Origin: Rhizobium sp. 9140
Lineage (GTDB): Bacteria; Pseudomonadota; Alphaproteobacteria; Rhizobiales; Rhizobiaceae
Direction: 5' to 3'
Assembly (NCBI RefSeq): GCF_900067135.1
Contig: NZ_FJUR01000001.1
Coordinates: 1,429,501 to 1,493,500, forward strand
Length of the DNA: 64,000 nucleotides
Part shown: positions 9,293 to 55,917 of the stretch, one piece after another
How the letters are laid out: every line of letters starts with the position of its first letter
How positions within the stretch are numbered: position 1 is the first letter of the stretch
Made by a program: the position numbers and the translations under genes
The notes under the pieces: generated by a model
Seen by the model: the letters and a program-made list of their open reading frames with translations, nothing else
The model's database searches: none
Told to the model about the DNA's origin: nothing

Positions 9293-9967
9293 ATGCGGCT
9301 GCTGCTGGTTGAAGACAGTCCCCGGCTCGCCGAGCTTCTGGGCGAAACCGTCCGCGAGGCCGGCTGGCGGCTAGATGTCGTGACGACGATCGCCGATGCG
9401 ACGGTGACGCTGACGCTGCGCGAGCACGACCTCGTTCTGCTCGATCTCGGCCTGCCCGACGGCAACGGGATCGAGCTGCTGCGCCAGATCCGCAAGATCT
9501 ACAAGGACCTGCCGGTTCTCGTCATCACCGCGCGCGGCTCGATCGAGGAGCGGATCGAGGGGCTGGATGCGGGGGCGGACGATTATCTCGTCAAGCCGTT
9601 TCACCACCGCGAATTCCTCGCCCGCTGTCGCGCCATGCTGCGGCGCAGCCCGACATCGCTTCAGCCGGTGCTCGAATGCGGCCACCTTCGATATGATCCT
9701 TCCATGGCGGAGCTGTCCTGCGGCGGCACCATCGTCGCGCTGCCGCCGCGCGAGCGGGCGCTGGCGGAATTGCTGATGCGCGATGCCGGCCGGGTGGTGC
9801 AGAAGCGCAAGCTGGAGCTGGCGCTGTCGGAATTCGGCGAGGAGATGACCGCCAACGCGCTGGAGCTTGCCGTTTCACGCCTGCGCAAGAAACTGCTTCC
9901 GGTCGATACCGGTGCCGATCTCGTCACCGTGCGCGGCGTCGGCTACATGCTGCAGGCCGCGCCATGA
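9293..9967 (+). CDS. OmpR/PhoB-family response regulator
   Basis: A 224-residue DNA-binding response regulator. The receiver domain (1-115) has the acidic pair ED at 7-8, phospho-acceptor D51 in LLDLGLPDGNG, and K in YLVKPF. The winged helix (about 125-222) ends VTVRGVGYML. It resembles the QseB/PmrA-like group that pairs with PepSY proteins, and the operon context agrees. The last four bases overlap the kinase start (ATGA), so the pair is translationally coupled. The ribosome site is weak (TGAGAAA). The signal is unknown. Confidence 0.88.
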   Translation: MRLLLVEDSPRLAELLGETVREAGWRLDVVTTIADATVTLTLREHDLVLLDLGLPDGNGIELLRQIRKIYKDLPVLVITARGSIEERIEGLDAGADDYLVKPFHHREFLARCRAMLRRSPTSLQPVLECGHLRYDPSMAELSCGGTIVALPPRERALAELLMRDAGRVVQKRKLELALSEFGEEMTANALELAVSRLRKKLLPVDTGADLVTVRGVGYMLQAAP

Positions 9968-11346: not shown

Positions 11347-11449
11347 ACCGAACTTTTCAGCCCGAAGGTTTTCCTCAAGCCCGTTCTCCTGTAAGCCCCG
11401 ATGCGTCTGCGCTTCGGCGTCAACGCATTCGAGCAAGAGGAATTTCACG

Positions 11450-11794
11450 ATGGATATCACACGCTTCGAGACCGGCCCGCGCATGAGCCAGGCCGTCGTT
11501 CACAACGGCACCGTCTATCTCGCCGGTCAGGTCGGCAATGCGGGCGACGACGTCGCAACCCAGACGAGCCAGGCGCTGGCTTCGGTCGATCGCCTGCTGG
11601 AACAGGCCGGCACCGACAAGACCCGAATCCTCAACGCCACCATCTGGCTGGCCGATATGGCCGACTTCCCGAAGATGAACGCCGTCTGGGACAAGTGGGC
11701 ACCGCAAGGCAACACGCCGGCGCGCGCCACGGGCGAAGCCAAGCTCGCGACCCCGGAATATCTGGTTGAAGTCATCGTCATCGCCGCCCTTTAA
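11450..11794 (+). CDS. RidA family protein
   Basis: A 114-residue cytosolic protein of the RidA/YER057c/UK114 family. These trimers hydrolyse reactive enamine/imine intermediates such as 2-aminoacrylate. The conserved arginine that binds the carboxylate sits in NTPARATGEAKLATPEYLVE, and the acidic and Tyr/Leu residues of the cleft are kept (GTVYLAGQVGN). Subfamily membership, and so true deaminase activity, is uncertain. It is a single gene with a good AAGAGGAA ribosome site. The stop is followed by a GC-rich hairpin (11804-11829) without a T tract. Confidence 0.88.
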   Translation: MDITRFETGPRMSQAVVHNGTVYLAGQVGNAGDDVATQTSQALASVDRLLEQAGTDKTRILNATIWLADMADFPKMNAVWDKWAPQGNTPARATGEAKLATPEYLVEVIVIAAL

Positions 11795-11854
11795 GGCGGA
11801 AGCACCGGGCGGCGACACGGTCGCCCGGTCACGCCTGCGGCATTCAAAGCAATC

Positions 11855-12238
11855 CTAGTTGCCGATCCGCGCCATACCGCTCTCACCATTGTCGCGCACC
11901 CACTTCACCTTGTCGGCGCCGGTAGCGGTCAGGTCGAAGCACATTTTCGCGCCCTTGTACCAGGTGTTGAACTGCTGGCAGAGCTTGTCGTCGGCGATCC
12001 ACCATTTGCCGGTGTCGCTCGGCTGGATCAGCTTGCCGATCCCAAGCGCCTTGCCATCCCCATCCACCACGCCCGACGTCCGGTAGTTCAGCGGAAACTC
12101 TCCGCCCATCGGCGCTTCGAGATAGATCGTGCGGCCGATGATCTTATCGCGGATATCGGCCTCGGTCATGCCGGCCGCAAAGGCTGCGGTGCTGCCGGAG
12201 GCTAACAAGAGGCTGATGGAGAGAAGGAATCTGTGCAT
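11855..12238 (-). CDS. Small secreted protein of unknown function
   Basis: I do not recognise a named family. The 127-residue product has a signal peptide (MHRFLLSISLLLASGSTAAF, cleaved after AFA-AG). The mature domain contains a GKWWIADDKLCQQF segment and a second cysteine in GAKMCFDL, a layout seen in several small alphaproteobacterial periplasmic proteins. A disulfide between the two cysteines is likely. Nothing in the neighbourhood suggests a role. Confidence 0.7.
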   Translation of the reverse strand: MHRFLLSISLLLASGSTAAFAAGMTEADIRDKIIGRTIYLEAPMGGEFPLNYRTSGVVDGDGKALGIGKLIQPSDTGKWWIADDKLCQQFNTWYKGAKMCFDLTATGADKVKWVRDNGESGMARIGN

Positions 12239-12317
12239 GGCGCGCGCTCTCGGTTCTTTGTTCGTTGAGACGTACGCCGTCGGAAATGTCCCGGATCACA
12301 GCCTTCGCGAAAGCTTG

Positions 12318-12343
12318 GGAACAATTTCGCAAATCGGGCCGTT
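12318..12343 (+). promoter_or_regulatory. EcfG-type general stress promoter
   Basis: GGAAC (12318-12322), 17 bp, CGTT (12340-12343). The -10 element ends 43 bp before the start of the 56-residue membrane protein. This is the exact consensus recognised by EcfG/RpoE2 sigma factors in rhizobia. Confidence 0.75.
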
Positions 12344-12386
12344 GTTAGGCCAGAATTAACGTTTCCATACATCGAAGGACGTTCCC

Positions 12387-12557
12387 ATGCTTTACTGGCT
12401 GCCCAGGCTCGGCCTGATCCTGCTCGTCTGCGCCGCACTTGCCGTCGGCGTCGTCTCCGCAACATCCGACGACGTGGCGAACACGCTGCTCGTCGTTCTC
12501 CTGGGTCTCGGCCTCTTCTCGTTGACCCTGCGGATCTTTCCGCCAGAGAAGTATTGA
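12387..12557 (+). CDS. Small two-helix membrane protein, stress-controlled
   Basis: A 56-residue protein starting MLYWLPRLGLILLVCAALAV and ending FPPEKY. Two hydrophobic segments (about 5-24 and 32-48) are joined by a short polar turn (SATSDDVAN). AAGGA lies 7 bp before the ATG, and an exact general stress promoter lies just upstream. I do not recognise a family. It is one of several tiny membrane proteins in this stretch under the same promoter type, pointing to a role in envelope protection. Confidence 0.72.
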   Translation: MLYWLPRLGLILLVCAALAVGVVSATSDDVANTLLVVLLGLGLFSLTLRIFPPEKY

Positions 12558-12775
12558 TCTGCTTGGCTGTAAAAGTGACCGCTGAAAAATACCATTTTTG
12601 GTGGAAAGTATCGGCCCGTCAGAGCTTTACGGGAACTTTTCTCCCGTCTCCGGATTGACGAACGTCCTAGCTGTCAGGTCATGCTCGTAGAGCATTGCGA
12701 GACCGCAAAATTGGGGCGTCAGGCAAGATACCGCGGCAGCTTTCGGCCCGCGCTCACTGCGAGTGGAGGTCAAAG

Positions 12776-13903
12776 ATGAATTCTGCCATACCGGAGCGAG
12801 CCCTGTTCAAGGCGAAGAAGAAGGCGCAAATCGAGAACCCGCCGCCGTCCGAAGCGACGGCACTGGCCGATCCCAAGACCGGCCTCGATCTTGTCGTCGC
12901 CTGGAGTATTGTCGGGACATTCGTCATCCTGATGTCCGGCGTCATTTATACGCTCGAATCCATCCTGATGCCTGTGACGTTAGCGATCGTCGTGGGTATG
13001 GTGCTCGGTGTTGCGGCTGACCGGCTCTCGCGTTTTGGCCTTCCGCCCGTGCTGGGCGGCCTGTTTTTCGGTGTCGTTTTCGTGGTGCTGGTCTTTTTCC
13101 TCGTCAACGCCTTGATCGAGCCGATCTCCACGCTGACCGCAAAAGCCCCGATGATCATGGAAGACGCGGTTCAGCGCTTCCTGCCCTTCTTCGAGCGCTT
13201 CGAATGGGTCAGGCGGGCTATCAACGGCGCGAACGAGAAGGCGATATCGGACATGGTCTTGGCCAATGCCGGCTCCATGCTGGGGCTGGTCGCCACGGGC
13301 CTTACGCCCGCCTTCGTTCAGACGCTGATCTTCCTTGCAGCCCTCGGCCTGTTCCTCATCGGCCGCGCGCATCTGCGCAAGACCATTATCCTTGCCTTTG
13401 CCACGCATGAGCGCCGCCTGACGGCGATCCGCGTCATGAATGCGACGGAGAACGCCGTTGGCTTCTATTTCTCCACTGCCAGCCTGATCTATATCTCGCT
13501 CGGCACGATCACGGCTCTCATCGCCTTCGCTGGCGGGCTCTCGGGCGCGGTTCTTTGGGGGCTTTTCGCCTTTGTTTCCAGCTTCATTCCCTATCTCGGC
13601 GTTACCGCCATGACGATCGCGCTCACCTGCGCCGGTCTGATGACGCATGACAGCATGATCATGGCACTGCTGCCAGCGGCCTGCTTCTTCCTGCTGCATC
13701 TGGTCATGGAAAATCTGGTAACGCCAGCGATCCTCGGCCATCGCCTGGAGATCAACCCGTTCCTGATCTTCATCGCCATCATCTTCTGGACATGGATGTG
13801 GGGTGCCGTCGGCGCGATGCTGGCCATGCCGCTCGCGCTGATCGGTCTCACCATCTTCAACGAGGTCCGCACTCGGCCGCCGGAACGCCAGCTGCCCGGC
13901 TGA
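12776..13903 (+). CDS. AI-2E family transporter
   Basis: A 375-residue polytopic membrane protein of the AI-2E (PerM/TqsA-like) family. About eight hydrophobic helices are seen, with a long soluble loop around residues 110-170. The typical C-terminal block includes LWGLFAFVSSFIPYLGV and LVTPAILGHRLEINPFLIF. Members export autoinducer-2 or act in Na+/Li+/H+ antiport, and the substrate here is unknown. ATG 12776 is set by GGAGG at 12765-12769. A weak stress-promoter-like sequence (GGAAC-N16-GATT, 12632-12656) lies upstream. It is convergent with phyR. Confidence 0.87.
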   Translation: MNSAIPERALFKAKKKAQIENPPPSEATALADPKTGLDLVVAWSIVGTFVILMSGVIYTLESILMPVTLAIVVGMVLGVAADRLSRFGLPPVLGGLFFGVVFVVLVFFLVNALIEPISTLTAKAPMIMEDAVQRFLPFFERFEWVRRAINGANEKAISDMVLANAGSMLGLVATGLTPAFVQTLIFLAALGLFLIGRAHLRKTIILAFATHERRLTAIRVMNATENAVGFYFSTASLIYISLGTITALIAFAGGLSGAVLWGLFAFVSSFIPYLGVTAMTIALTCAGLMTHDSMIMALLPAACFFLLHLVMENLVTPAILGHRLEINPFLIFIAIIFWTWMWGAVGAMLAMPLALIGLTIFNEVRTRPPERQLPG

Positions 13904-13910
13904 GGAGCTC

Positions 13911-14714
13911 TCAGGCTTCGCCGGCGGGGGCGTTCTCGTTGAAGAACAGCGCTTGGCTGATCAGCGCCTTCACCATGTCAGGGTTGAACGGCTTCGTGAC
14001 GAGGAAGGCCGGTTCCGGCTTTTCGCCCGTCAGAAGGCGCTCCGGAAACGCCGTGATGAAGATCACCGGCACGGTCGCCGTCGAGAGAATTTCGTTTACC
14101 GCATCGATACCCGAGCTGCCATCCGCAAGCTGAATGTCGGCCAGGACCATTTTCGGCGATGTCCGCTTGAACAGCTCGACCGCTTCGCTATGCGTGCGGG
14201 CAATGCCGGCCACGCCGTGGCCGAGGCTGCGCACCATATCCTCGATATCCATGGCGATCAGCGGCTCGTCCTCGATGATGAGGATGTCGGTCACGACCTG
14301 ACGGGAAATGTCCGTCGAAGCCTGCTGAATCAATCCGGCCACCGCATCCGGCGTAACGCTCAGGATTTCCGCGGTCTCATCGGGGCTAAAGCCTTCGACG
14401 GAGACGAGCAGGAACGCCTTGCGCGCATCGGGCGAGATCCGCGCCAGATTGGCGGCGGCCCGCTTTTCCCACGCATAAGGCGAATTTACCGCCTCTTCGT
14501 CGATCTTGATGGTGATCGTATCGAACAGCGAGCAATAGAGTTTGAAGACGCTGACCCGGTCGCTCGACGCCTTGGGAAACAGGTCGATATTGGCAATCAA
14601 CGCTTCGAGGACGGCCGCGACGTAGGCATCGCCCGACGTCTGCGAGCCCGTGATGGCGCGGGAGAAGCGGCGGACATAGGGAAGGTGTGCGGCGATCCGC
14701 ATGGAAAGTGACAT
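13911..14714 (-). CDS. phyR: General stress response regulator PhyR
   Basis: A 267-residue protein with the unique PhyR layout: an N-terminal EcfG sigma-like domain (1-140; sigma-4-like segment RKAFLLVSVEGFSPDETAEI) and a C-terminal receiver (142-262). The phospho-acceptor is D193 in LADIQLADG, the acidic pair is in IIEDEP, and the lysine is in LVTKPF. When phosphorylated, the sigma-like domain binds NepR and frees EcfG. ATG 14714 has AAGGA upstream. It is divergent from nepR, as in other Rhizobiales. I saw no exact stress promoter of its own. Confidence 0.93.
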   Translation of the reverse strand: MSLSMRIAAHLPYVRRFSRAITGSQTSGDAYVAAVLEALIANIDLFPKASSDRVSVFKLYCSLFDTITIKIDEEAVNSPYAWEKRAAANLARISPDARKAFLLVSVEGFSPDETAEILSVTPDAVAGLIQQASTDISRQVVTDILIIEDEPLIAMDIEDMVRSLGHGVAGIARTHSEAVELFKRTSPKMVLADIQLADGSSGIDAVNEILSTATVPVIFITAFPERLLTGEKPEPAFLVTKPFNPDMVKALISQALFFNENAPAGEA

Positions 14715-14927
14715 GATAGACGTCCTTCGATATATTGGCGCCGAAACCGGACAGAGTTTGATCGTTCGACGAGTCGAAACAGGGACGTTTGACCATGTTT
14801 CCCGTCGTGTGGAAAGTTTGATCGGCAAGAATTACAAAGCATGAGGGAGACGTGATCAATTTGAGGATGCTGACGGGCTGCGCCGGGATGGGCGCGATTG
14901 GATTTCGGACGAAACGGACCTGACATC

Positions 14928-15116
14928 ATGGCGGATATGACAAACCCCAAACAAGGCCCGGTCCTGCAACATGCGGAGACCATGGACCCGAACAGCCAGA
15001 TTGTCTCGAAACTGAGAGCCCTTTACAGTGCCGTGGAGCGGGAACCTCTTCCCGATGCGTTTCTCGATCTCCTGCAGCAACTTGACGGTGTCGAGAATGC
15101 GCGCAAGGGCCGATGA
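14928..15116 (+). CDS. nepR: Anti-sigma factor NepR
   Basis: A 62-residue protein with the NepR core, two helices around a proline-containing turn, in SKLRALYSAVEREPLPDAF followed by LDLLQQLD. NepR holds EcfG inactive and is removed by phosphorylated PhyR. The first 25 residues are polar and presumably disordered. ATG 14928 is preferred; an in-frame start ten codons earlier is possible. Unusually, a strong terminator follows at once and no ecfG gene is next to it. Confidence 0.9.
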   Translation: MADMTNPKQGPVLQHAETMDPNSQIVSKLRALYSAVEREPLPDAFLDLLQQLDGVENARKGR

Positions 15117-15143
15117 AAGAGCGGAGCCCCAGATCAGCGACAC

Positions 15144-15172
15144 AAAAAAACGGGCCTTAGGCCCGTTTTTCC
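15144..15172. terminator. Bidirectional terminator between nepR and lipoprotein gene
   Basis: CGGGCC (15151-15156) pairs with GGCCCG (15160-15165) around TTA. An A run lies on one side and a T run on the other, so it can stop transcription in both directions. Confidence 0.9.
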
Positions 15173-15199
15173 GTTTCAGTCGGTAATGGATCGAACCGA

Positions 15200-15448
15200 T
15201 CAGCAGGATGCTGTATAGCGGCGGCCGTTGCGGTCGCGGTAGATGCAGCGGCCCGGTTCGTTCGCCTGACCGATCAGCGCGCCAGCAAGGCCGCCAACGC
15301 CGGCGCCGATTGCCGCGCCACGCACGTTGCCGGTTGCCGCGCCGCCGATGATGGCGCCCGATGCTGCACCGATGCCAGCGCCGCGTTCCGTCTGCGTGCA
15401 GGCTGCGAGCGGCATGATCAGGGCGACGACGAGAAGAGCTTTTTTCAT
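15200..15448 (-). CDS. Glycine-zipper lipoprotein
   Basis: An 82-residue lipoprotein. The signal peptide MKKALLVVALIMPLAACTQT carries the lipobox LAAC, so C18 should be lipidated. Next comes a glycine-zipper segment (GAGIGAASGAIIGGAATGN and GAAIGAGVGGLAGALIG), then a short C-terminal tail with a cysteine pair (GRCIYRD and TASC-end) that may form a disulfide. Such proteins insert in or line the outer membrane. Start 15448 has GGAGGATATCACC upstream. It lies 55 bp downstream of the DUF3309 gene and is likely co-transcribed from the same stress promoter. Confidence 0.82.
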   Translation of the reverse strand: MKKALLVVALIMPLAACTQTERGAGIGAASGAIIGGAATGNVRGAAIGAGVGGLAGALIGQANEPGRCIYRDRNGRRYTASC

Positions 15449-15503
15449 GGTGATATCCTCCGGTTCAACTTGGTGTGGATGGCCCTCTGGGAAAGCCGAG
15501 GTT

Positions 15504-15659
15504 TTATATGCGTCCCATAAGGACCAACACAAGAAGGATAACGACCACCAGGCCCAGGCCACCGGAAGGTCCATAGCCCCAGCTGCGGCTGTGGCCCCAC
15601 GTCGGCAGAGCGCCGATCAGTAGGAGTACAAGGACGATCACGAGAATGGTGCCAAGCAT
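15504..15659 (-). CDS. DUF3309 small membrane protein
   Basis: A 51-residue protein starting MLGTILVIVLVLLLIGALPT, with a central HSRSWGYGPSGG motif and a second hydrophobic helix GLVVVILLVLVL. This two-helix hairpin with a W-G-Y-x-P-S-G-G turn is typical of the DUF3309 family, whose function is unknown. The ATG has AGAGGAA upstream. A perfect EcfG-type promoter lies 41 bp before the start, so it belongs to the general stress regulon. Confidence 0.85.
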   Translation of the reverse strand: MLGTILVIVLVLLLIGALPTWGHSRSWGYGPSGGLGLVVVILLVLVLMGRI

Positions 15660-15699
15660 TGGCGGTTCCTCTTTGGGTTCATTCGGAATGCGGAGCTAT

Positions 15700-15724
15700 A
15701 ACGCGCGCTTCTCTCTTTTGTTCC
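15700..15724 (-). promoter_or_regulatory. EcfG-type general stress promoter
   Basis: Read on the minus strand: GGAAC (15724-15720), 16 bp, CGTT (15703-15700). It drives the DUF3309 gene and probably the lipoprotein gene after it. Confidence 0.78.
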
Positions 15725-15820
15725 AAGCACTGATCATACCAGTTTGATGCTCTTAGCCGAGCGCCGTTCATCGAACTGCCTCCATTACGAGATGCGGCTA
15801 CGAGCTGCGGCCTACACATG

Positions 15821-15846
15821 GGAACAAATCCCGCCCCGCTTGCGTT
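15821..15846 (+). promoter_or_regulatory. EcfG-type general stress promoter
   Basis: GGAAC (15821-15825), 17 bp, CGTT (15843-15846), oriented toward the PRC-barrel gene that starts 288 bp downstream. The long leader is unusual. It either drives that gene with an extended 5' region or a small transcript in the gap. Confidence 0.65.
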
Positions 15847-16133
15847 ATGGGTCCTGTGTGAATGTAGGGATAGTGCGGTGTGGCAGGTGACCGGCGCGAA
15901 ATCAGCGACGTATCCAGCATCACCAAAGAGGTGATGCAGATCGCCTCTGCAACACGAAGTCGGCCATGATGGCTGCCGGCACGCGCGTCAAGCGGCGTTT
16001 CGCCCCCCACACGTTCTTTCCGTTCCAGAATGCATCCAGAAAGCGCGCATGCCGAAACAGCGTCGCACGCGACTCGCAAACCCGAACCGCCATTTCATTC
16101 TGTCCCATCGTCTCACGTTTAAGGAGCAATCCG

Positions 16134-17126
16134 ATGCTGAAAACCCTTCTGGCAAGCACAGTTCTTGCTGCCGCTCTTACCGGTACTGCACTGGCACAGC
16201 AGACGCCGGCAGCACCCGCAGCAGCACCGGCAGCAGCACCGGCAGCCTCGGCCCCTGCGGCATCACCCTCTGCTGCGGCAGCAGGCGACGACATGCTCGC
16301 GTCCAACGTTATCGGCAAGACGGTCTATACCGGCGTTGACGAGGAAGGCGAAGCGATCGGCGAGGTCAAGGATGTCGTGATCAACGCGGCCGGCGCCACC
16401 GAAGCGCTGGTCGTCGGCGTCGGCGGCTTCCTCGGCATCGGCGAAAAGGATGTGGCGGTCAATTTCGATCGTGCCTCGTGGTCGGAGCGTGACGGTTCCA
16501 AGATCCTCGTGGTCTCCATGACCAAGCAGGACCTCGAAGCGGCGCCCGCTTTCCAGCGCAAGGCCGTCATGGACGGTGCCGTCACCAAAGACACCGCAGC
16601 AACCGCGCCCGCGCCCTCCACGGATACCGCGGCCAAGCCGCTCGCAACGCCGGAGAATACGGAAGTCCCTCTGGACGCTGCCGGTGCCGAACCGACCGTT
16701 CCCCAGACCGGCACCACCCCGGAGATGACCGATCCGGATCTGGCGCCTGACGCTGCGGCCACCGCGACGGTCGAGCCCACGGACGAGTTGAAGCCGGTCG
16801 ATGCCGCCATGCTGTCAGCCGACAAGCTGATCGGCACACCGGTGAAAGTGGCCGACGACACGAAAATCGGTGAAGTCGGTGACGTCATCCTGGCAAAAGA
16901 CGGCAAGCTCGAAGCTTATATCATCGATGTCGGCGGCTTTCTCGGCATTGCGCAGAAGCCGGTGGCGATGAGTGCTGCCAATATTCAGGTCATGGCGAAT
17001 GCAAAGGGCGCGATGACGATCTACTCGCCCTTCACCAAGGAGCAGCTGGAAACCCAGCCCGCCTACGACGCCGCCGCCTACAAGGCTGACCCCGGCAGCA
17101 TCGTGCTGGCCAACCCCAAGCCCTGA
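16134..17126 (+). CDS. Exported protein with two PRC-barrel domains
   Basis: A 330-residue protein with signal peptide MLKTLLASTVLAAALTGTAL (cleaved after LAQ) followed by an Ala/Pro-rich stretch to about residue 50. Two homologous PRC-barrel domains follow (about 52-140 and 225-315), each with the block VGGFLGI(G/A)-x-K-x-V-A, separated by an Ala/Thr/Pro-rich linker. The PRC-barrel is a small beta-barrel fold also found in ribosome and photosynthesis assembly proteins. The periplasmic form is common in Rhizobiales but unexplained. AAGGAG precedes the ATG by 7 bp. A stress promoter lies upstream. Confidence 0.85.
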   Translation: MLKTLLASTVLAAALTGTALAQQTPAAPAAAPAAAPAASAPAASPSAAAAGDDMLASNVIGKTVYTGVDEEGEAIGEVKDVVINAAGATEALVVGVGGFLGIGEKDVAVNFDRASWSERDGSKILVVSMTKQDLEAAPAFQRKAVMDGAVTKDTAATAPAPSTDTAAKPLATPENTEVPLDAAGAEPTVPQTGTTPEMTDPDLAPDAAATATVEPTDELKPVDAAMLSADKLIGTPVKVADDTKIGEVGDVILAKDGKLEAYIIDVGGFLGIAQKPVAMSAANIQVMANAKGAMTIYSPFTKEQLETQPAYDAAAYKADPGSIVLANPKP

Positions 17127-17138
17127 TCTTGTGAGGAC

Positions 17139-17167
17139 AAGGCGGCTGATCGCTCGGCCGCCTTTTT
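17139..17167 (+). terminator. Terminator of the PRC-barrel gene
   Basis: An 8-bp stem AAGGCGGC / GCCGCCTT (17139-17146 with 17157-17164) is followed by T residues, 12 bp after the stop codon. Confidence 0.88.
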
Positions 17168-17204
17168 CATGTTCGCCGGTCGTGATCACCCATTTACAGG
17201 CAAC

Positions 17205-17229
17205 AAAAAAGGCGACCCACCGGGCCGCC
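17205..17229 (-). terminator. Terminator of the NepR-like gene
   Basis: On the minus strand GGCGGCC pairs with GGTCGCC (one G-T wobble) around CGGTG and runs into six T residues, about 25 bp after the stop codon. Confidence 0.85.
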
Positions 17230-17253
17230 CTCACCATGTCTGCCGGATGGAAA

Positions 17254-17454
17254 TCAGTGCCGCTCGCTGCGGCCTTCCGACGAATCCAGCGCATCCAGCA
17301 ATTGCTCGAACCGCCCATCCGTCGCCGGCATCTGACCGTTGAAGTAAAGATCCTTCAGCGTCTGGCCAATGTGAAGGTTCTTCTCGCTTGACCGCGATGC
17401 AGGCCGCGCCGAGGCCGCAACGGACTTCCAGATATGTGCGTTCGATACGGTCAT
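17254..17454 (-). CDS. NepR-like small protein, stress-controlled
   Basis: A 66-residue protein whose second half matches the NepR core. The segment IGQTLKDLYFNGQMPATDGR plus FEQLLDALDSSE aligns without gaps to the NepR encoded at 14928. Shared positions are I-x3-L-x2-L-Y, then 11 residues, F-x2-LL-x2-LD-x2-E. The usual EPxPDRF turn is altered (the proline comes one residue earlier and acidic residues are fewer), so it is divergent. It has its own exact EcfG-type promoter 32 bp upstream and its own terminator. Binding to EcfG or PhyR is inferred. A start six codons earlier is possible but has no better ribosome site. Confidence 0.65.
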   Translation of the reverse strand: MTVSNAHIWKSVAASARPASRSSEKNLHIGQTLKDLYFNGQMPATDGRFEQLLDALDSSEGRSERH

Positions 17455-17486
17455 GTTGGTGTCTCGCCTCAATGATTCGTGAACTC

Positions 17487-17511
17487 AACGCCCCGTGCAC
17501 TGTGAAGTTCC
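17487..17511 (-). promoter_or_regulatory. EcfG-type general stress promoter
   Basis: On the minus strand: GGAAC (17511-17507), 16 bp, CGTT (17490-17487). The -10 element lies 32 bp before the NepR-like start codon. Confidence 0.78.
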
Positions 17512-17740
17512 GCCCATCCTGCGGCAACGTCGTGTCAAAATGAGCCAGCGCGCTCGTTATGGTAAATCAATACTTAAAGGTATTTGTCCTGCAGGGGTTG
17601 GCGGGGAGGCGCTTTGTGGCTGCGACGATGGGTGAATGCGCAGATAAAAGATCCCGATTTTTCCAGTTTTTACCTATGGCCTCGTACCGCGCAGTCATCA
17701 CCTCAATCCTGCCGGCAACCTTCGCATTACAGGCACTGAG

Positions 17741-17765
17741 GGAACAAACGATATTGTGATGCGTT
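17741..17765 (+). promoter_or_regulatory. EcfG-type general stress promoter
   Basis: GGAAC (17741-17745), 16 bp, CGTT (17762-17765), ending 31 bp before the DUF1328 start. The 342-bp gap 17455-17796 holds this promoter and the divergent one at 17487-17511. I see no gene between them. Confidence 0.8.
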
Positions 17766-17796
17766 TGTGAGCATGAATTCATCGGAGGAAGAAGCC

Positions 17797-17964
17797 ATGC
17801 TGTACTACGCACTTGTTTTTCTCGTCGTTGCCATCATTGCAGGTGTTCTCGGTTTCGGCGGCATTGCCGGCGCATCTGCCGGTATTGCGCAGATCCTATT
17901 CTTCCTGTTTCTTGCCTTCCTCGTCATTTCGCTCGTCGCAAGCTTGATGCGCCGCCGCACCTGA
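17797..17964 (+). CDS. DUF1328 (UPF0391) small membrane protein
   Basis: A 55-residue hydrophobic protein starting [20 protein letters not shown] and containing [20 protein letters not shown], the hallmark of the DUF1328/UPF0391 (YtjA-like) family. It has two membrane helices and a basic RRRT tail. Function is unknown; in several bacteria members are stress-induced. GGAGGAAGAAGCC precedes the ATG, and an exact stress promoter lies upstream. A strong terminator follows, so it is monocistronic. Confidence 0.9.
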
Positions 17965-17997
17965 GCCTTGACGGAAACGACGGTCGGATATCGTCGG

Positions 17998-18025
17998 AAA
18001 GGGAGTGGTTCGCCACTCCCTTTTT
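17998..18025 (+). terminator. Terminator of the DUF1328 gene
   Basis: An 11-bp stem (17998-18008 with 18013-18023) around TTCG and a run of T residues. Confidence 0.92.
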
Positions 18026-18143
18026 CGTTGTGCGGCAAGAGCGGCCGAGCAGCGAATTCCTCATTAGCCCTGTTGCGGAACGTCCGGAAAATGCTGACAT
18101 AGGCACAAAGACGCGACACGCTGGGAACATGGAGTTGAGCACG

Positions 18144-19400
18144 ATGAAGACGGATGTGGCGGTTCTGGGTGCAGGGATTGTCGGCCTGTCCACGGCGATC
18201 CATCTTGCGCGGCGCGGAAAATCGGTTCTGCTCGTCGACCGCCGCGGGGCGGGGGAGGAAACCTCCTTCGGCAATGCCGGCCTTATCCAGCGGGAGGGCG
18301 TCGTGCCCTACGGCTTCCCGCATGATTTCGGCGCTCTGTTCCGCTATGCCCTTAATAATACCATCGACGCCCATTACCACCTGAAGGCCCTGCCGGGTCT
18401 CGTGCCGTTTCTGGTGCGCTACTGGTGGAATTCAGGCTTCACCCAGCACCAGCATATCGCAAGGCTTTATGCGCCGCTGATCGAGAACTCGATCACCGAA
18501 CATGCCGACCTTATCAAGGCGTCGGGTGCCGACAACCTCATCCAGCGCGATGGCTGGATGAAGGTTTTCCGCACGGATGCCGCCCGCGATGCTGCCTATA
18601 AGGAGGCCGAGCGCCTGTCGGCCGGCTTCGGCGTCAATCACCAGAAGCTCTCGCCGAGCGACGTCAAGGCACTGGAACCCTCGATCCGCATCGGCCTCGC
18701 CGGCGGTCTGCGCTGGACCGACCCGTGGTCGATCCGCGATCCCCATAGCCTGAACAAGGCCTACCTCACCTATTTCCAGTCCCTCGGCGGGCGCCTGGTC
18801 GCAGGCGATGCCGCAACGCTCGAGCACGTTCTGGAAGGTCCCGGCTGGCGTATCGCTTCGCCGGATGGACCGATCGAGGCGGCTGAGGTCGTCGTGGCCC
18901 TCGGTCCGTGGGCGGATACCGTCACCCGCAAGCTGGGTTACCGCTACCCGCTTGCGGTCAAGCGTGGCTACCATATGCATTACGGCACGCAGGAGGGCGA
19001 ACGGCTGAACAACTGGGTGCTCGATGCCGAGAAGGGATACTTCCTCGCACCCATGCTGCGCGGAATCCGGCTCACGACCGGCGCAGAGTTTGCGACCCGC
19101 GATGCGCCGAAGACGCCGGTTCAGCTCGCCCGCGCCGAACGCGTCGCCCGCGACTTCTTCCCGCTCGCCGAACGCCGCGACGAGGAGCCGTGGATGGGCG
19201 CGCGGCCCTGCACCCCGGACATGATGCCCATCATCGGCAAGGCGCCGCGGCACGAAGGCCTGTGGTTTGCCTTCGGCCATGCTCATCACGGCATGACCCT
19301 TGGCCCCGTCACCGGTCGAGCGCTGGCCGAAAAGATGACCGGCGAACGCACGACCATCGTCGATCTCGGCCCCTATCGTCCGGAACGCTTCGTCGCCTGA
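18144..19400 (+). CDS. FAD-dependent D-amino acid dehydrogenase-type oxidoreductase
   Basis: A 418-residue flavoprotein of the DAO/DadA family. The N-terminal Rossmann motif GAGIVGLSTAIHLARRGKSV (GxGxxG near residues 8-13) binds FAD. Next comes SFGNAGLIQ, the DadA-type substrate-side block, and the C-terminus holds the second FAD contact RPCTPDMMPIIG and the HAHHGMTLGP segment. Such enzymes deaminate D-amino acids or related amines to ketoacids and pass electrons to the quinone pool. The substrate is not predictable. ATG 18144 is favoured by GGAG nine bases upstream; ATG 18129 is possible. Confidence 0.85.
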   Translation: MKTDVAVLGAGIVGLSTAIHLARRGKSVLLVDRRGAGEETSFGNAGLIQREGVVPYGFPHDFGALFRYALNNTIDAHYHLKALPGLVPFLVRYWWNSGFTQHQHIARLYAPLIENSITEHADLIKASGADNLIQRDGWMKVFRTDAARDAAYKEAERLSAGFGVNHQKLSPSDVKALEPSIRIGLAGGLRWTDPWSIRDPHSLNKAYLTYFQSLGGRLVAGDAATLEHVLEGPGWRIASPDGPIEAAEVVVALGPWADTVTRKLGYRYPLAVKRGYHMHYGTQEGERLNNWVLDAEKGYFLAPMLRGIRLTTGAEFATRDAPKTPVQLARAERVARDFFPLAERRDEEPWMGARPCTPDMMPIIGKAPRHEGLWFAFGHAHHGMTLGPVTGRALAEKMTGERTTIVDLGPYRPERFVA

Positions 19401-19473
19401 GCCCGCGCCTTCGCGAAGCCGGCTGCCATCAAGTGACCTCGTGGTGCGGACAAGTTTGTTTGATATCGGGCAC

Positions 19474-19498
19474 GGAACGATAGGGCGCTCCTGCCGTT
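19474..19498 (+). promoter_or_regulatory. EcfG-type general stress promoter
   Basis: GGAAC (19474-19478), 16 bp, CGTT (19495-19498). It lies 100 bp before the 66-residue gene at 19599 in the same orientation. Confidence 0.75.
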
Positions 19499-19598
19499 TC
19501 AACGTCGCTGCACACGAAAGGCCGTTGTGTCCGCGCCACGACAGTCTGCCGTGGCTGTGACGAGATGGGCTGCCGGGGCAAGGCGGCGGGAGATAGAC

Positions 19599-19799
19599 AT
19601 GCAAAAACAGATCGTTGAGATTGCCGGCGAAGCCGTCGGTACCTTGATGCCGCACGCGCGCGGCTTACGCTTCATGGCCGTCAAGTTCCACGTCTGGCCG
19701 CTCGATGGCGAGGTCTATGCCGATCCCGCCACGGCGCATCAGGCCGTGACCGCCCACATCGCCGCGACCCGCGAGGCCATGGCCGACCACGTTCACTGA
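19599..19799 (+). CDS. Small soluble protein of unknown function, stress-controlled
   Basis: I do not recognise a family. The 66-residue product starts MQKQIVEIAGEAVGTLMPHA, contains a hydrophobic-aromatic core (RFMAVKFHVWPLDG) and ends in a His/Asp tail. It has no signal peptide or membrane helix. GGGAG lies seven bases upstream of the ATG. The exact EcfG-type promoter upstream argues that this is a real gene. Confidence 0.68.
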   Translation: MQKQIVEIAGEAVGTLMPHARGLRFMAVKFHVWPLDGEVYADPATAHQAVTAHIAATREAMADHVH

Positions 19800-19823
19800 T
19801 GACGAGATCAGCGGAAAAAGAGA

Positions 19824-20231
19824 TCAGGGGTCGCGGTAACCGGACGCATGAATATCCAGCCGATAGGTGCCGGGATCCGCAGAAAACATAAGGGCACCTT
19901 CCACCTGAGACTGAGCGGGCACATAATCGATTGTCACCTCCCGCATCTCCACCTCCCGTTGCTCACCATCCAGCAGCCGTCCCGTCACAGGCACGCCGGC
20001 AGCCGTCTTCTTGCCGGCGTTAGAGACGATGAAGGAAATCTCGAAGCCCTGCACCGTCGGCCTTTGTGCGGTGATGGTGACGCTAAGCTCCGGTGCCGCA
20101 TCTCTGGCGGTCAGGCCGTGGTAAAGAATCATGCCGGTCATGGAGGCGACGAGCGCGGTGGAGAGCAGGCCGGTGGTCCACTCGATCCAGTGCGGGTGCC
20201 GGCGAACGATCTTGCGGCGGGAACCTGCCAT
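19824..20231 (-). CDS. TIGR02588 family membrane-anchored protein
   Basis: A 135-residue protein with a basic N-terminus, one membrane helix (about 18-40, WTTGLLSTALVASMTGMILY) and a periplasmic domain that looks like a small beta-sandwich (ELSVTITAQRPTVQGFEISF and VTIDYVPAQSQVEGALMF). The features and its position 7 bp behind a TIGR02587-type gene match the paired TIGR02587/TIGR02588 families of unknown function. The two products probably form a membrane complex. Confidence 0.78.
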   Translation of the reverse strand: MAGSRRKIVRRHPHWIEWTTGLLSTALVASMTGMILYHGLTARDAAPELSVTITAQRPTVQGFEISFIVSNAGKKTAAGVPVTGRLLDGEQREVEMREVTIDYVPAQSQVEGALMFSADPGTYRLDIHASGYRDP

Positions 20232-20238
20232 CAGAACC

Positions 20239-21078
20239 TCATAGGATCAGCCGTGCGGCAGCAGCGCCGATCGCGCCGGGAAAGCCGAGCACGATGGTGG
20301 ACATCAAGGCCGGCATGGAGCCTGACCCGTCCAGCCTGCCGAAACTCCACAGGCAATAAAGGCTGACCAGCAGCGCGATGACGTAGCCGGGAAGGGTGAA
20401 CCGGGTCAGCGCGTGCCATCCCGGCGTATCCTTCAGCTCGTGCCCGCCCTTGAACGAAACGGCATAGACGAAGGCGTGCATGACGAGGATGGACAGGGCG
20501 ATGGTCGCAAGCGCATGCCACGGCGTCATCTTGTAGGAAATCAGGATCATCTCTTCCGTCGGAGCCATGTTGAGGCTGAGAAACAGCGCACCTACGGCCA
20601 TCATGAAGAGTTCGGCGCCGTAGCCGCTGTCCGGCTCATCTTCCGCGTCGTCGGGATCCGTGCCGAGCTGGCTGCGGCCGAGAAGCGCGCCGATGCCGGC
20701 GGGAACGGCCTGCAGAGCAATCTTGCCGAGGAAATCCTGCTCGGCCGTTTCCGGCGTCAGCAGCTTGAACAGAGTGAGGATCATCGCGCTGGCGAGAATG
20801 CCGATCGCATAGGCGATCATGGCATCGCGAATATCTTCGCGCCAGGAAAACGTCTTCTCGAAACCGATGCGATGCGCGATACCCACAAGCAGCGGCACGG
20901 TGATAACGAGAAGCAGCGCAAGCCGGAAGCGATCCATGGCAAAGCCGAGATCCCACATCTCCATCGTCATCTGCATGGGCAGTGCAAAGAGGAGCGCGCC
21001 CGCAATGCCGCGCCCGAGCCCGGTGACGAACGCCGTCGTCTGAAACGGCGCCCCGCGCGCCTCGTCCACATCGTCCAT
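20239..21078 (-). CDS. TIGR02587 family integral membrane protein
   Basis: A 279-residue protein with about eight membrane helices. Recognisable features are the N-terminal GLGRGIAGALLFALPMQMTM and the central LSLNMAPTEEMILISYKMTP. It forms a two-gene unit with the TIGR02588 protein. Start 21078 is chosen because GGGGGTGA lies just upstream; the frame extends further but has no better site. The function is unknown. In other Rhizobiales the pair is often near stress genes, as here. Confidence 0.8.
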   Translation of the reverse strand: MDDVDEARGAPFQTTAFVTGLGRGIAGALLFALPMQMTMEMWDLGFAMDRFRLALLLVITVPLLVGIAHRIGFEKTFSWREDIRDAMIAYAIGILASAMILTLFKLLTPETAEQDFLGKIALQAVPAGIGALLGRSQLGTDPDDAEDEPDSGYGAELFMMAVGALFLSLNMAPTEEMILISYKMTPWHALATIALSILVMHAFVYAVSFKGGHELKDTPGWHALTRFTLPGYVIALLVSLYCLWSFGRLDGSGSMPALMSTIVLGFPGAIGAAAARLIL

Positions 21079-21225
21079 CGTCACCCCCAACGCGCCAGAC
21101 ACAAAACAGCGCGGCCGAAAAGGACCGCGCAGACAGACTTTCCAATGCCCATAGTCCGAGACACTGAGCGTAGGCAAATGCTTATGCAGCGACGCCGGAT
21201 AAGCACCGTACACGCCGGCAGGATC

Positions 21226-21711
21226 TCAATCGTTCAACCCGCTCGGGAATGCCGCATCGACGGCGATCGTCGTCAGGTCGTTCCGCACCTTGGAAATGCC
21301 GGGAATACGGTATGCGAGTTCCTCGACCGCGCGACGATCGGCTGCCGTCTCGACCTCGCCGGACAGTTCGGCAACGCCGCGCAAAACTTTGATCTCGACG
21401 GCGGAGGTGTCGATCTCATGCTCTTCAAGCGCGTTGGAAAGTGCCTCTTCCAAGCCGTCGTCATCGGTGTCGGCCTCCGGATCGTCACGCAGAATATCCG
21501 GACCTCCATGGCCGATGCGAACCGTCTCGTCCGATGTCTCGAAGCCTGGATTGCCAGACTCGTCAAAACTCTCCGGCGTCTCGCCATATGAGCGGTTGGC
21601 GACATCGACCGGGGAGCCGGAGACGTCGTCGGCATATGGCCAACCCTCCTTCAGGTCGCGGTCTTCATAATCACGATAGTCTTCTTCACGGCGTGTGGTC
21701 TTCTCGATCAT
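21226..21711 (-). CDS. BON-domain protein
   Basis: A 161-residue acidic protein. Residues 1-85 are rich in Asp, Glu, Arg and Gly and probably disordered. Residues 88-155 form a BON domain with the typical LRGVAELSGEVETAADRRAV and ending VRNDL. BON domains bind phospholipid or link envelope proteins and occur in osmotic-shock proteins such as OsmY. There is no signal peptide, so it is presumably cytoplasmic. No exact stress promoter was found upstream. Confidence 0.83.
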   Translation of the reverse strand: MIEKTTRREEDYRDYEDRDLKEGWPYADDVSGSPVDVANRSYGETPESFDESGNPGFETSDETVRIGHGGPDILRDDPEADTDDDGLEEALSNALEEHEIDTSAVEIKVLRGVAELSGEVETAADRRAVEELAYRIPGISKVRNDLTTIAVDAAFPSGLND

Positions 21712-22038
21712 CGTCAGGATCCTCGATCTGGTCGTTTCGCCTGGGTAAACCGCTGAGCGAGGCTTTGGTTCGACCGACGGCGGATTATGTCCGGCCGATG
21801 ATCCGCACGATTGCCACGTCCAGATGACAGCGGCTTCTCAGCATGAGATGGGAGAGAAGCCGGTGCCCATCATAAAGGCGCGGTCCAGTACCTCGGCTAT
21901 CTGAAGGAGACTGTCTGCATTCTTACCGGCCAGAGCAATATGTTCGGCGTGTGGAAAAAACGCGCCACGAAAAAAGCGAGACCTTCCAGCCTCGCTTTTT
22001 CCCTTTTCAACAATCACTTACCATGCTTCACACCGAAC
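21712..22038. other. Intergenic region between BON gene and PAT-rich membrane protein
   Basis: Apart from the terminator at 21971-22000 I see no gene here. It should contain the promoter of the BON-domain gene, but no consensus element stands out. Confidence 0.5.
21971..22000 (-). terminator. Terminator of the PAT-rich membrane protein gene
   Basis: A 10-bp stem AAAAAGCGAG / CTCGCTTTTT (21971-21980 with 21991-22000) has a T run on the minus strand, 38 bp beyond the stop codon. Confidence 0.88.
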
Positions 22039-22551
22039 TTATGGAGCCGTGCTTGGCGCAGTACCCGTCGCTGGAGCCGTGCCGGTTGCGGCCGGCGGGG
22101 TAACCGGAGCTGTCTCGGCCGGGGCAGTTGCCGCAGGCGGGGTTGCGGCCGGTACCGTTGCGGGAGTCTGCGTATCGGTGGCGGAAGGCACCTCTGATGC
22201 CGGTGGCGTTGCCGTCTGGCTGGCAGGTGCAGGCTGTATCGCCGTGTCGGACGCGTCGTTCGACATTTCCGCAGGCAACCATACCAGCAGTGCCAGCACG
22301 AGACCGGCGAGCAGAATGATCAGGACCGGCCAGTTGCTGCGACGGGTCCGCGCCGTCGGTGCTGCCGGATCCAGCGGACGCTGGACCAACGGATCGCCGA
22401 GCGGTGCCGCCGTCACCGGATCGATCCCGGCAGTTGGGCGCATCGTCGCCGCGTCCGTACGGGCAGCCTGCTCGGCTCTCGCCGCATCGTCGGCAGGCCA
22501 GGACGTAGGATTTGCGGGGCGCTTTTCATTCGGATCAAAACGCTGGTTCAT
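22039..22551 (-). CDS. Single-pass membrane protein with Pro/Ala/Thr-rich tail
   Basis: A 170-residue protein with a cytoplasmic polar domain (1-70), one membrane helix (about 73-93, NWPVLIILLAGLVLALLVWL) and a C-terminal tail of about 75 residues made almost only of Pro, Ala, Thr and Val. The tail should reach into the periplasm as an extended spacer, perhaps through the peptidoglycan. No known domain is seen. AAGGAGGAAG precedes the ATG, and an exact EcfG-type promoter lies 48 bp upstream. Confidence 0.75.
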   Translation of the reverse strand: MNQRFDPNEKRPANPTSWPADDAARAEQAARTDAATMRPTAGIDPVTAAPLGDPLVQRPLDPAAPTARTRRSNWPVLIILLAGLVLALLVWLPAEMSNDASDTAIQPAPASQTATPPASEVPSATDTQTPATVPAATPPAATAPAETAPVTPPAATGTAPATGTAPSTAP

Positions 22552-22599
22552 GACAGCTTCCTCCTTGTCGTTTTGCCGACTATCGGCACATGCAGAGAA

Positions 22600-22624
22600 A
22601 ACGCACTGTTAAAGCTAATGTTCC
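22600..22624 (-). promoter_or_regulatory. EcfG-type general stress promoter
   Basis: On the minus strand: GGAAC (22624-22620), 16 bp, CGTT (22603-22600), 48 bp upstream of the PAT-rich membrane protein start. Confidence 0.78.
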
Positions 22625-22665
22625 TGACACGCCCCTTGGGCTCGTCTGACAAGGACGGCAAACGC

Positions 22666-22703
22666 AAAAGCGAGCGGCAGAGTTCTACCCCCGCCGCTCG
22701 CTT
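22666..22703 (-). terminator. Terminator of the 85-residue stress gene
   Basis: An 11-bp stem AAGCGAGCGGC / GCCGCTCGCTT (22668-22678 with 22693-22703) is followed on the minus strand by T residues, 32 bp past the stop codon. Confidence 0.88.
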
Positions 22704-22735
22704 CTCACCGTGCAAAATCACCCTCGAGAAAAAGG

Positions 22736-22993
22736 TCAGTCCTGCTCACGCACACCCGGCGTCGCTTCGCGCTGATCGGCATCTTCCAGATCGGACTGTA
22801 CCAGAAAAACGTCCCCCTTTAACCGAACCGCCTCCCGACGCGCAGCCGCCGACATGACATCATCCGGCTCCGTATCATCCCCATCCTTGCCTCTCAACTC
22901 CGCCTCGCTCCCGATCGGCGTCACGTCCTCATCATGAATATCAAGATTGCGGTCCGTATGACCCTGTTCGCCAGCCCTGCCTTTGTCGGCCAT
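22736..22993 (-). CDS. Small acidic hydrophilic protein, stress-controlled
   Basis: An 85-residue, highly charged protein starting MADKGRAGEQGHTDRNLDIH, with no hydrophobic core or membrane helix. Its composition (Asp, Glu, Arg, Gly rich) suggests a disordered, hydrophilin-like stress protein. That is inference from composition. I do not recognise a family. AAGGAG precedes the ATG, an exact EcfG-type promoter ends 27 bp upstream, and a strong terminator follows, so it is an independent gene. Confidence 0.75.
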   Translation of the reverse strand: MADKGRAGEQGHTDRNLDIHDEDVTPIGSEAELRGKDGDDTEPDDVMSAAARREAVRLKGDVFLVQSDLEDADQREATPGVREQD

Positions 22994-23020
22994 GTCGCTT
23001 CTCCTTGGTTTCCTGATCGA

Positions 23021-23045
23021 AACGCCGGCCGGAAGCCAATGTTCC
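23021..23045 (-). promoter_or_regulatory. EcfG-type general stress promoter
   Basis: On the minus strand: GGAAC (23045-23041), 16 bp, CGTT (23024-23021), 27 bp upstream of the 85-residue protein start. Confidence 0.8.
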
Positions 23046-23207
23046 GGGAAGGGATAGCGACCTCGTCCCATCAGCAGGTCGTCGGCAATGCACGGGACTT
23101 CGGGAGACGCACACTGCTTAGGGCCGCATGGCATCAGGTCGTCAAAACGCAGATACGGAATCCAGCATGACAGAAACTAAGAGCAAAAAATGAGATTTGA
23201 CAAGAAT

Positions 23208-23281
23208 TGGCTGGGGAACCTGGATTCGAACCAGGACTAACGGAGTCAGAGTCCGTGGGTCTACCGTTAACCTATTCCCCA
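23208..23281 (-). tRNA. tRNA-Gln (anticodon CUG)
   Basis: On the minus strand the acceptor stem TGGGGAA pairs with TTCCCCA, followed by discriminator G and an encoded CCA. The anticodon arm ACGGA-CTCTGAC-TCCGT gives anticodon CUG, reading CAG glutamine codons. The T arm contains GGTTCGAATCC. The total is 74 nt including CCA. It stands alone between the stress gene cluster and ppx. Confidence 0.95.
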
Positions 23282-23563
23282 ACGCGCGGGCTGTGCCCGT
23301 CGGTGTGCCGGGCTTATAGACAAAAGGAGGCGGGATGCAAAGGGGGTTTTTGAAAAACTTTGCGGGATGGTCGAATGGGGTGGTTTTTGTTTGGGGAGCC
23401 GGGAGGTTTTAGGGGGGAAACGGAGCGGTTTGGCGGGGTGGATTGTCGTTCGGGAAAAAGCAGTTGGCGAAAGGCGGGCGCGCTGGTAGAGTCGGGACAA
23501 CGAAAATCGAGAGAGCGTCTTGAGCGACCGGTTTAGGCTTCGCGCGACGCGGTGGTAAGATCA

Positions 23564-55695: not shown

Positions 55696-55917
55696 CTACT
55701 CGCCGAGATCGAGCTTGCTGCGCAACGCATCGATCCGCTTCGACGCCTCCGCCTTGGTGATATCCTCGGCAAACTGTTCCGGCTGATGCGCCTGCTCCGA
55801 CAAGGTCTGCAGATAAGACCGCTGCGCCCCCGTCATGGGCTCGTCGCCGCTGACCCAGTTATCGGGGTTCTTTTCGGTGTTGGAAGACGTGTCGTTGGCG
55901 ATGGCTTTGTCGGACAT
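55696..55917 (-). CDS. DUF3072 small protein, stress-controlled
   Basis: A 73-residue hydrophilic protein of the DUF3072 family, recognisable from DEPMTGAQRSYLQTLSEQAH and DITKAEASKRIDALRSKL. It looks like a small helical protein and is widespread in stress regulons of rhizobia. The gene has an exact EcfG-type promoter ending 30 bp upstream. The ATG is preceded by GAGGAGCACTTC. The function is unknown. Confidence 0.85.
   Translation of the reverse strand: MSDKAIANDTSSNTEKNPDNWVSGDEPMTGAQRSYLQTLSEQAHQPEQFAEDITKAEASKRIDALRSKLDLGE

Follow-up and report, generated by a model that had tools for sequence, protein, structure and literature searches.

An Island of EcfG-Type Promoters around an Orphan phyR-nepR Pair of Rhizobium sp. 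9140 Contains a Divergent NepR Homologue

Genes and Promoter Sites of the Island

The window considered here, that is the whole stretch of 64,000 nucleotides (nt) taken from contig NZ_FJUR01000001.1 of Rhizobium sp. 9140, carries between positions 12318 and 23045 a compact group of genes surrounding phyR2 and nepR2, which encode a PhyR-family anti-anti-sigma response regulator and a NepR anti-sigma factor. Eight exact EcfG-type promoter motifs are distributed along this region, referred to as the island in what follows. One of them precedes nepR3, a gene for a 66-residue protein which computational analysis identifies as a divergent homologue of NepR. The features of the island, together with a ninth promoter and its gene found elsewhere in the window, are the following (promoters are assigned by motif):

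12318..12343, + strand: EcfG-type promoter, 43 nt upstream of the 56-residue membrane protein gene
12387..12557, + strand: 56-residue membrane protein, DUF7470-like below cut-off (16.7 bits against a cut-off of 27)
13911..14702, - strand: phyR2, PhyR-family anti-anti-sigma response regulator, orphan copy; PF22029, PF22233 and PF00072 over cut-off, NF006623 at 367.5 bits
14928..15116, + strand: nepR2, canonical-type NepR anti-sigma factor, orphan copy; PF18557 at 49.6 bits against a cut-off of 25.7
15144..15170, no strand assigned: hairpin with T-runs on both strands, between the convergent nepR2 and glycine-zipper genes, read by eye
15200..15448, - strand: gene for an 82-residue glycine-zipper, lipoprotein-like protein; PF13488 over cut-off (frame scanned to 15454)
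15504..15659, - strand: 51-residue DUF3309 protein, PF11752
15700..15724, - strand: EcfG-type promoter, 40 nt upstream of the DUF3309 gene
15821..15846, + strand: EcfG-type promoter, 284 nt upstream of the PRC-barrel gene
16131..17126, + strand: 331-residue PRC-barrel protein with a signal-like N-terminus; PF05239 in two stretches
17254..17454, - strand: nepR3, 66-residue divergent NepR homologue, under the Pfam and NCBIfam cut-offs
17487..17511, - strand: EcfG-type promoter, 32 nt upstream of nepR3
17741..17765, + strand: EcfG-type promoter, divergent from nepR3, 31 nt upstream of the DUF1328 gene
17797..17964, + strand: DUF1328 small membrane protein, PF07043
19474..19498, + strand: EcfG-type promoter, 100 nt upstream of the 66-residue protein gene
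19599..19799, + strand: 66-residue protein with no family match in Pfam (longer frame, 19527-19799) or NCBIfam
22039..22551, - strand: 170-residue protein with, by eye, one apparent transmembrane segment and a Pro/Ala-rich tail; no family over cut-off
22600..22624, - strand: EcfG-type promoter, 48 nt upstream of the 170-residue protein gene
22736..22993, - strand: 85-residue hydrophilic protein, no NCBIfam match
23021..23045, - strand: EcfG-type promoter, 27 nt upstream of the 85-residue protein gene
55696..55917, - strand: 73-residue DUF3072 protein, outside the island; PF11272 at 98.2 bits
55948..55972, - strand: EcfG-type promoter, 30 nt upstream of the DUF3072 gene

Distribution and Conservation of the EcfG-Type Sites

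The motif searched for was the exact GGAAC-N16/17-CGTT, and genes were called with a simple caller of our own, supplemented manually with the DUF3309 and 170-residue genes and with chosen starts for the PRC-barrel and DUF1328 genes. An initial annotation, made from the sequence alone, had listed nine such sites in the window and expected about one by chance; all nine were recovered, with no other match, and 100 dinucleotide shuffles gave a mean of 0.84 and a maximum of 3. No site overlaps a called coding sequence, and each of the nine is followed on its own strand by a gene start, after 27, 30, 31, 32, 40, 43, 48, 100 and 284 nt (the last being the PRC-barrel gene), so that the sites are indeed intergenic and directed toward genes, as first described. 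The clustering noticed around phyR-nepR also holds. Eight of the nine sites fall within 10.7 kb (12318-23045), a length in which 0.22 sites are expected at the genome rate; the probability of finding at least eight is 1.3e-10, or about 6e-8 when multiplied by the number of such windows. The description of the targets as mostly proteins of 51-85 residues is appropriate for seven of the nine, the PRC-barrel and the 170-residue proteins falling outside this range.

The 5.43-Mb genome contains 113 matches against 93 for the reversed control, so that single matches elsewhere may be due to chance. Outside the window, 91 of the 100 sites that were listed out of the 113 could be considered. The DNA retrieved around these 91 contained 92 sites: 56 intergenic, 5 partially overlapping and 31 within called coding sequence. 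Measured against the 77% of the fetched DNA called as coding, a background which derives from stretches chosen around the sites themselves, the intergenic enrichment has a P value of 3e-15, in support of the earlier view that these are EcfG-type promoters and not random motif density. Those that fall in called coding sequence also have a different spacer and a different composition after GGAAC. Two other regions of the genome, C1:174500-180500 and C1:2724200-2732000, each carry four exact sites within 4-6 kb; all eight are called intergenic, five of them lie at most 200 nt from a same-strand start, and the two regions are possible further clusters of the regulon.

The positions of the sites were then compared among related loci. 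A scan with PhyR2 provided the best 80 loci of a longer list, comprising 26 island loci (defined by an orthologue of the FAD oxidoreductase at >60%), 35 loci beside ecfG and 19 others; the 54 non-island loci were counted for phyR and nepR only. Within the island loci, the exact motif is found upstream of the orthologues of the 56-residue membrane protein gene (24/24), the DUF3309 gene (14/14), the PRC-barrel gene (12/13, at 42-284 nt), the DUF1328 gene (24/25), the 170-residue protein gene (22/22) and the 85-residue protein gene (2/2, both from close relatives). In 25 of the 26 loci a motif also precedes the glycine-zipper gene by no more than 350 nt, and this gene appears to use the DUF3309 promoter. 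As for nepR3, all 24 orthologues retain the motif, 27-63 nt from the matched start and 6-63 nt from the first ATG, even though the identity of the protein falls to about 30%. By contrast, the motif is missing from seven of the eight neighbouring genes tested, namely phyR2, nepR2 and the FAD oxidoreductase gene (0/26 each), BON (0/13), DUF2391 and TIGR02588 (0/9 each) and p127 (0/7), and the reversed motif was found once across all these comparisons. Since most of these genes retain the motif across the 26 loci and seven of eight neighbours are without it, the sites of the island are very probably real EcfG-type promoters. The island and its arrangement are old and common to relatives within the Rhizobiaceae.

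Two other explanations have to be confronted with these data. A chance cluster of motifs is ruled out by the shuffles, the conservation in related loci, the intergenic enrichment and the probability of the cluster. The broader idea that the matches are accidental, or are something other than EcfG promoters, could appeal to the genome count beside its reversed control and to the 31 sites in called coding sequence; set against the count of the window, the position conserved in 26 loci and the divergent make-up of the coding sites, we consider it extremely improbable. A second explanation is ordinary clustering, in which EcfG targets were co-inherited, with phyR2-nepR2 a redundant pair and NepR3 playing no role that could be measured. 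Many of the targets are small proteins of unknown function, and RsiB1 and RsiB2 are redundant in Sinorhizobium meliloti (PMC4814048). Nevertheless, the retention of NepR3 and its promoter in every orthologue measured, down to such low identity, makes this explanation an unlikely one.

The Orphan phyR2-nepR2 Pair

The presence of phyR and nepR, proposed by the initial annotation, is borne out by family matches over cut-off. The same annotation found it striking that ecfG is missing and that a terminator stands in its place. The sigma factor gene is indeed absent from this locus; the genome nevertheless possesses a canonical phyR1-nepR1-ecfG locus at C1:3148-3150 kb, about 1.7 Mb from the window, which answers the question then raised of where ecfG is encoded and rules out its loss from the genome. 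Its ecfG codes for a 188-residue sigma factor passing NF009169 and NF009199, and PF18557 detects two genes in the genome, nepR2 and one at C1:3149048. The PhyR sigma2 model matches six genes, that is phyR1, phyR2, ecfG and three others; the latter precede genes of 259, 278 and 275 residues, by eye membrane anti-sigma-like, and none of the three was taken as ecfG. Concerning the terminator, a hairpin with T-runs can be read by eye at 15144-15170 and likely serves both nepR2 and the glycine-zipper gene, although it was not among the hits of a scan.

Orphan pairs of this type have been described in other bacteria. In S. meliloti, rsiB2 (SMc00794) and rsiA2 (SMc04884) are a second PhyR and a second NepR without ecfG (PMC3616915, PMC4814048), and in Sphingopyxis granuli the nepR1-phyR1 genes are a divergent second pair at a distance from ecfG, with no third NepR-like gene named in the accessible text (PMC7083833). 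Given these precedents and the canonical locus elsewhere, the lack of ecfG at the island is ordinary, and the emphasis first placed on it does not hold. Moreover, rsiA2 is not RpoE2-dependent (PMC3616915, PMC4814048), and nepR2 likewise has no EcfG motif. The pair of the window would be orthologous to rsiB2/rsiA2, judging from the kin of the genus and from locus numbers: Sinorhizobium loci (S. medicae, S. fredii and others) belong to the island set and include the DUF1328 gene, which in S. meliloti is SMc00796 (PMC6637203), the loci compared being from strains other than S. meliloti 1021. The Rhizobium etli EcfG1 regulon shares with the window the promoter motif GGAAC-N16-CGTT; it differs in having a canonical locus plus a second sigma factor, EcfG2, and no NepR3 is named in the part of the paper at hand (PMC3892343).

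The absence of an exact EcfG motif from phyR2 and nepR2 had escaped the initial annotation, and contrasts above all with the phyR gene of the ecfG-adjacent loci. An exact motif is present at phyR in 32 of 35 ecfG-adjacent loci and 8 of 19 other loci, and at nepR in 12 of 35 and 1 of 9, respectively, against none of the 26 island loci in either case. The best partial matches upstream of phyR2 and nepR2 are no better than those of shuffled sequence and, consequently, by motif the orphan pair is not under EcfG. The nearest named relative of PhyR2, 98% identical, is from Rhizobium sp. PP-CC-3A-592. In a midpoint-rooted PhyR tree, island PhyR2 and Shinella-type rows split from the rest with support 87/87; the 27 island rows need one change, but with support of 56/0 and 53% of bootstraps a single origin of island PhyR2 is only weakly backed.

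NepR3, a Divergent NepR Homologue

The gene behind the site at 17511, also overlooked by the initial annotation, encodes a protein that passes the cut-off of no Pfam or NCBIfam family. Its relationship with NepR emerges from profiles built on 24 orthologues, which tblastn located in the loci. Specifically, comparison of the NepR3 profile with a profile of 26 NepR sequences gave a score of 49.2 and a probability of 96.6, with control maxima of 16.4 / 4.8 for 300 column shuffles and 12.9 for the reversed profile. When the NepR3 profile was run against 177,635 PDB sequences, the top two matches were both chains of NepR, 5uxx_B at E 0.033 and 4qic_B at E 0.054. PF18557, in turn, matches 11 of 25 NepR3 members at E <= 10, the best at E 0.014. 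A six-frame search of 394 genomes of the family with the NepR3 profile, in which at most 15 candidates per genome were scored so that presence counts are lower bounds, found matches in at least 106 genomes: 32 with strong hits (E <= 1.2e-9), 87 with weak hits and 13 with both. The weak matches coincide with PF18557 genes in 80 of 80 checked out of the 87, the genome's own nepR1 included. On the basis of the profile-profile score, the top PDB matches and the fall of the weak matches on PF18557 genes, nepR3 is a divergent NepR homologue.

The gene is closely tied to the orphan pair. It scores above 40 bits in 26 of 26 island loci (24 of which are in the model) and in none of the 54 other loci, and all 10 strong-hit genomes compared have a PF18557 NepR gene on the contig of nepR3, at a distance of 1.7-6.3 kb. 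Among 48 database relatives of NepR3, many without a name and others with shortened names, those shown are 'hypothetical' or 'uncharacterized', except for one 'DUF465'. What is new here is nepR3 itself, a homologue of NepR that had gone unrecognised within the regulon, next to the orphan pair.

No paper on this gene was found in the literature covered, supplements apart, whose tables may already list its S. meliloti orthologue as dependent on RpoE2. The accessible text of the papers on its S. meliloti neighbours SMc00794, SMc00795, SMc00796, SMc00798 and SMc00800 names no NepR-like gene beyond RsiA1 and RsiA2, and none beyond RsiA2 at the rsiB2/rsiA2 locus: PMC3616915 deals with SMc00794, a paper on Ensifer mentions SMc00796 and SMc00800, one on Clr mentions SMc00795 and one on PhaR mentions SMc00798. 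A third NepR-like product of S. meliloti, similar to RsiA1/RsiA2, has been described from an unannotated open reading frame opposite SMb21687, beside rpoE5 (PMC6180224). Unlike nepR3, it sits on SMb beside another ECF15 sigma gene and not at the orphan rsiB2/rsiA2 locus, the likeness being one of description.

Other Features of the Island

The nepR3 and DUF1328 genes form a divergent pair served by two EcfG-type promoters, and their spacer (17455-17796), like its counterpart at the island loci, may hold further signals. The glycine-zipper and DUF3309 genes are likely one transcription unit. Between its EcfG site and its start, the PRC-barrel gene has a 284-nt leader (15847-16130) without an Rfam match, as long as that of one related locus; across the 12 loci with the motif, this leader measures 42-186 nt in nine and 241-284 nt in three. 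Over positions 11000-24500, Rfam at gathering scores matched only a tRNA. Inside the island, at 19824-21084, there is also a TIGR02588/TIGR02587 (DUF2391) membrane gene pair without an EcfG motif. Nine of the 26 island loci match it, and some may be truncated at the end of the locus. Just outside, at 9293-11346, two genes look by eye like a response regulator paired with a sensor kinase.

A Possible Feedback on PhyR

The arrangement suggests a circuit, which we think is probably correct, in which the locus is a conserved general-stress-response island whose EcfG-induced NepR3 binds PhyR and damps the response. From the eight EcfG-type promoters, genes around the orphan pair would be expressed whose products are small stress proteins of envelope or hydrophilic type, with the sigma factor supplied by the canonical locus some 1.7 Mb off. 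As phyR2 and nepR2 lack EcfG promoters, their products would probably be there before the stress, as a second input arm. Upon stress, phosphorylated PhyR1 or PhyR2 would remove NepR from EcfG, and the free EcfG would transcribe the island, so that NepR3 builds up. NepR3 would then bind PhyR and release NepR again, and the response would be damped. The motif sites, their conservation, the canonical locus and the homology of NepR3 are results of computation, whereas we infer the EcfG dependence of the island genes, the binding of PhyR by NepR3 and the negative feedback.

The closest precedent is NepR2 of Sphingomonas melonis Fr1, a diverged NepR-like protein for which BLAST gave no conclusive function and which is regulated by EcfG, as nepR3 appears to be by its invariably retained motif (PMC6599016). 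This protein binds PhyR, its overexpression lowers the response in a negative feedback, and its function requires a Leu in helix 1 together with an aromatic residue four positions away (PMC6599016). Its gene lies beside ecfG, that of NepR3 beside the orphan pair, and the two are likened by description. Likewise, three NepR paralogues are known in Methylobacterium extorquens (META2p0735, META1p1275 and META1p2700): META1p2700 and META2p0735 have EcfG-type promoters, META1p1275 and META2p0735 bind PhyR, and none of the three was seen to bind EcfG in what is reported there (PMC4814048). Their gene neighbourhoods are unlike that of nepR3, and here again the comparison is by description.

In S. melonis NepR, changing L32 or Y36 to Ala weakened the protein (PMC6599016). 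NepR3 presents L33 and Y37 in corresponding positions, as matched by the L-K/R-x-x-Y spacing; in the 15 non-Ensifer rows L33 is always conserved, and position 37 is Tyr in 14 and Phe in one. A further anti-sigma function would instead have NepR3 bind EcfG directly, and its EcfG promoter would make it a direct autoregulatory brake of the kind that rsiA1 represents in S. meliloti. It would be in keeping with the NepR homology, with the conserved LLxxLxxxE of helix 2 and with the fact that both S. meliloti NepR proteins bind RpoE2 (PMC4814048). However, the linker Pro of NepR is lost in NepR3 and the linker Glu mostly lost, and diverged NepR paralogues elsewhere bound PhyR with no sigma binding seen in the accessible reports, whose authors leave it possible; we therefore hold direct binding of EcfG to be improbable. 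The PhyR-binding feedback brake is favoured because of the S. melonis and M. extorquens precedents, the Leu/aromatic pair of the non-Ensifer rows and the loss of the linker residues.

Another alternative is that NepR3 has left the partner switch altogether, keeping the NepR core, with an N-terminal HIWKS segment and an LHIGxT core serving another target. Of the 30 NepR3 rows, 25 keep W9, 29 keep H28 and all 30 keep T32, whereas none of the 15 NepR rows has any of the three (N26 and G30 do not set NepR3 apart), and the key Tyr is gone from nine of the ten Ensifer-type rows. Against this stand the vicinity of nepR3 to a PF18557 NepR gene, its occurrence in all island loci and the retention of both key residues outside Ensifer, and this alternative appears the least likely of those that assign NepR3 a partner.

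Several observations weigh against the proposed circuit. In the ten Sinorhizobium/Ensifer rows the key Leu is replaced by Met or Ile in all ten and the Tyr is kept in one, so that in this group binding by NepR3 may be lost or changed. The linker Pro is found in 0/30 NepR3 rows and the linker Glu in 9/30, against 15/15 NepR rows for both. The NepR3 of the window scores just 11 bits on PF18557, far from its cut-off. AlphaFold models of NepR3 show two helices over the NepR-like stretch, to position 38 and at 48-65, at low confidence (predicted local distance difference test, pLDDT, of 63.6 and 67.9), and a Foldseek search with the pLDDT-63.6 model returned no NepR and nothing below E 2.5. Moreover, the rise of S. 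melonis NepR2 under stress was just under the cut-off of its authors (PMC6599016). With regard to the promoters, the loci are mutually related and their footprint counts are not independent; the 66-residue protein gene at 19599, the weakest case, keeps the exact motif in just 11 of 22 orthologues; and the AI-2E gene, the eighth neighbour tested, has a motif within 350 nt in 8 of 26 loci and none of its own in the window, a motif that may be the promoter of a small gene preceding it.

The stress response of the Alphaproteobacteria has one of its models in S. meliloti, where the contribution of the additional PhyR and NepR copies is said to be not known (PMC4814048). More tentatively than for the island itself, we suggest that part of the Rhizobiaceae may have an overlooked EcfG-induced NepR-like layer, encoded in an orphan island and feeding back on PhyR, which in Sinorhizobium would follow a different rule or act on a different partner after the loss of the contact residues. 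If this were true, current models of the RpoE2/RsiA/RsiB circuit, the best-studied rhizobial stress circuit, would be without one of its components. A conserved NepR homologue that stands beside the orphan pair and has an EcfG-type promoter is a concrete candidate for the means by which the response is turned off.

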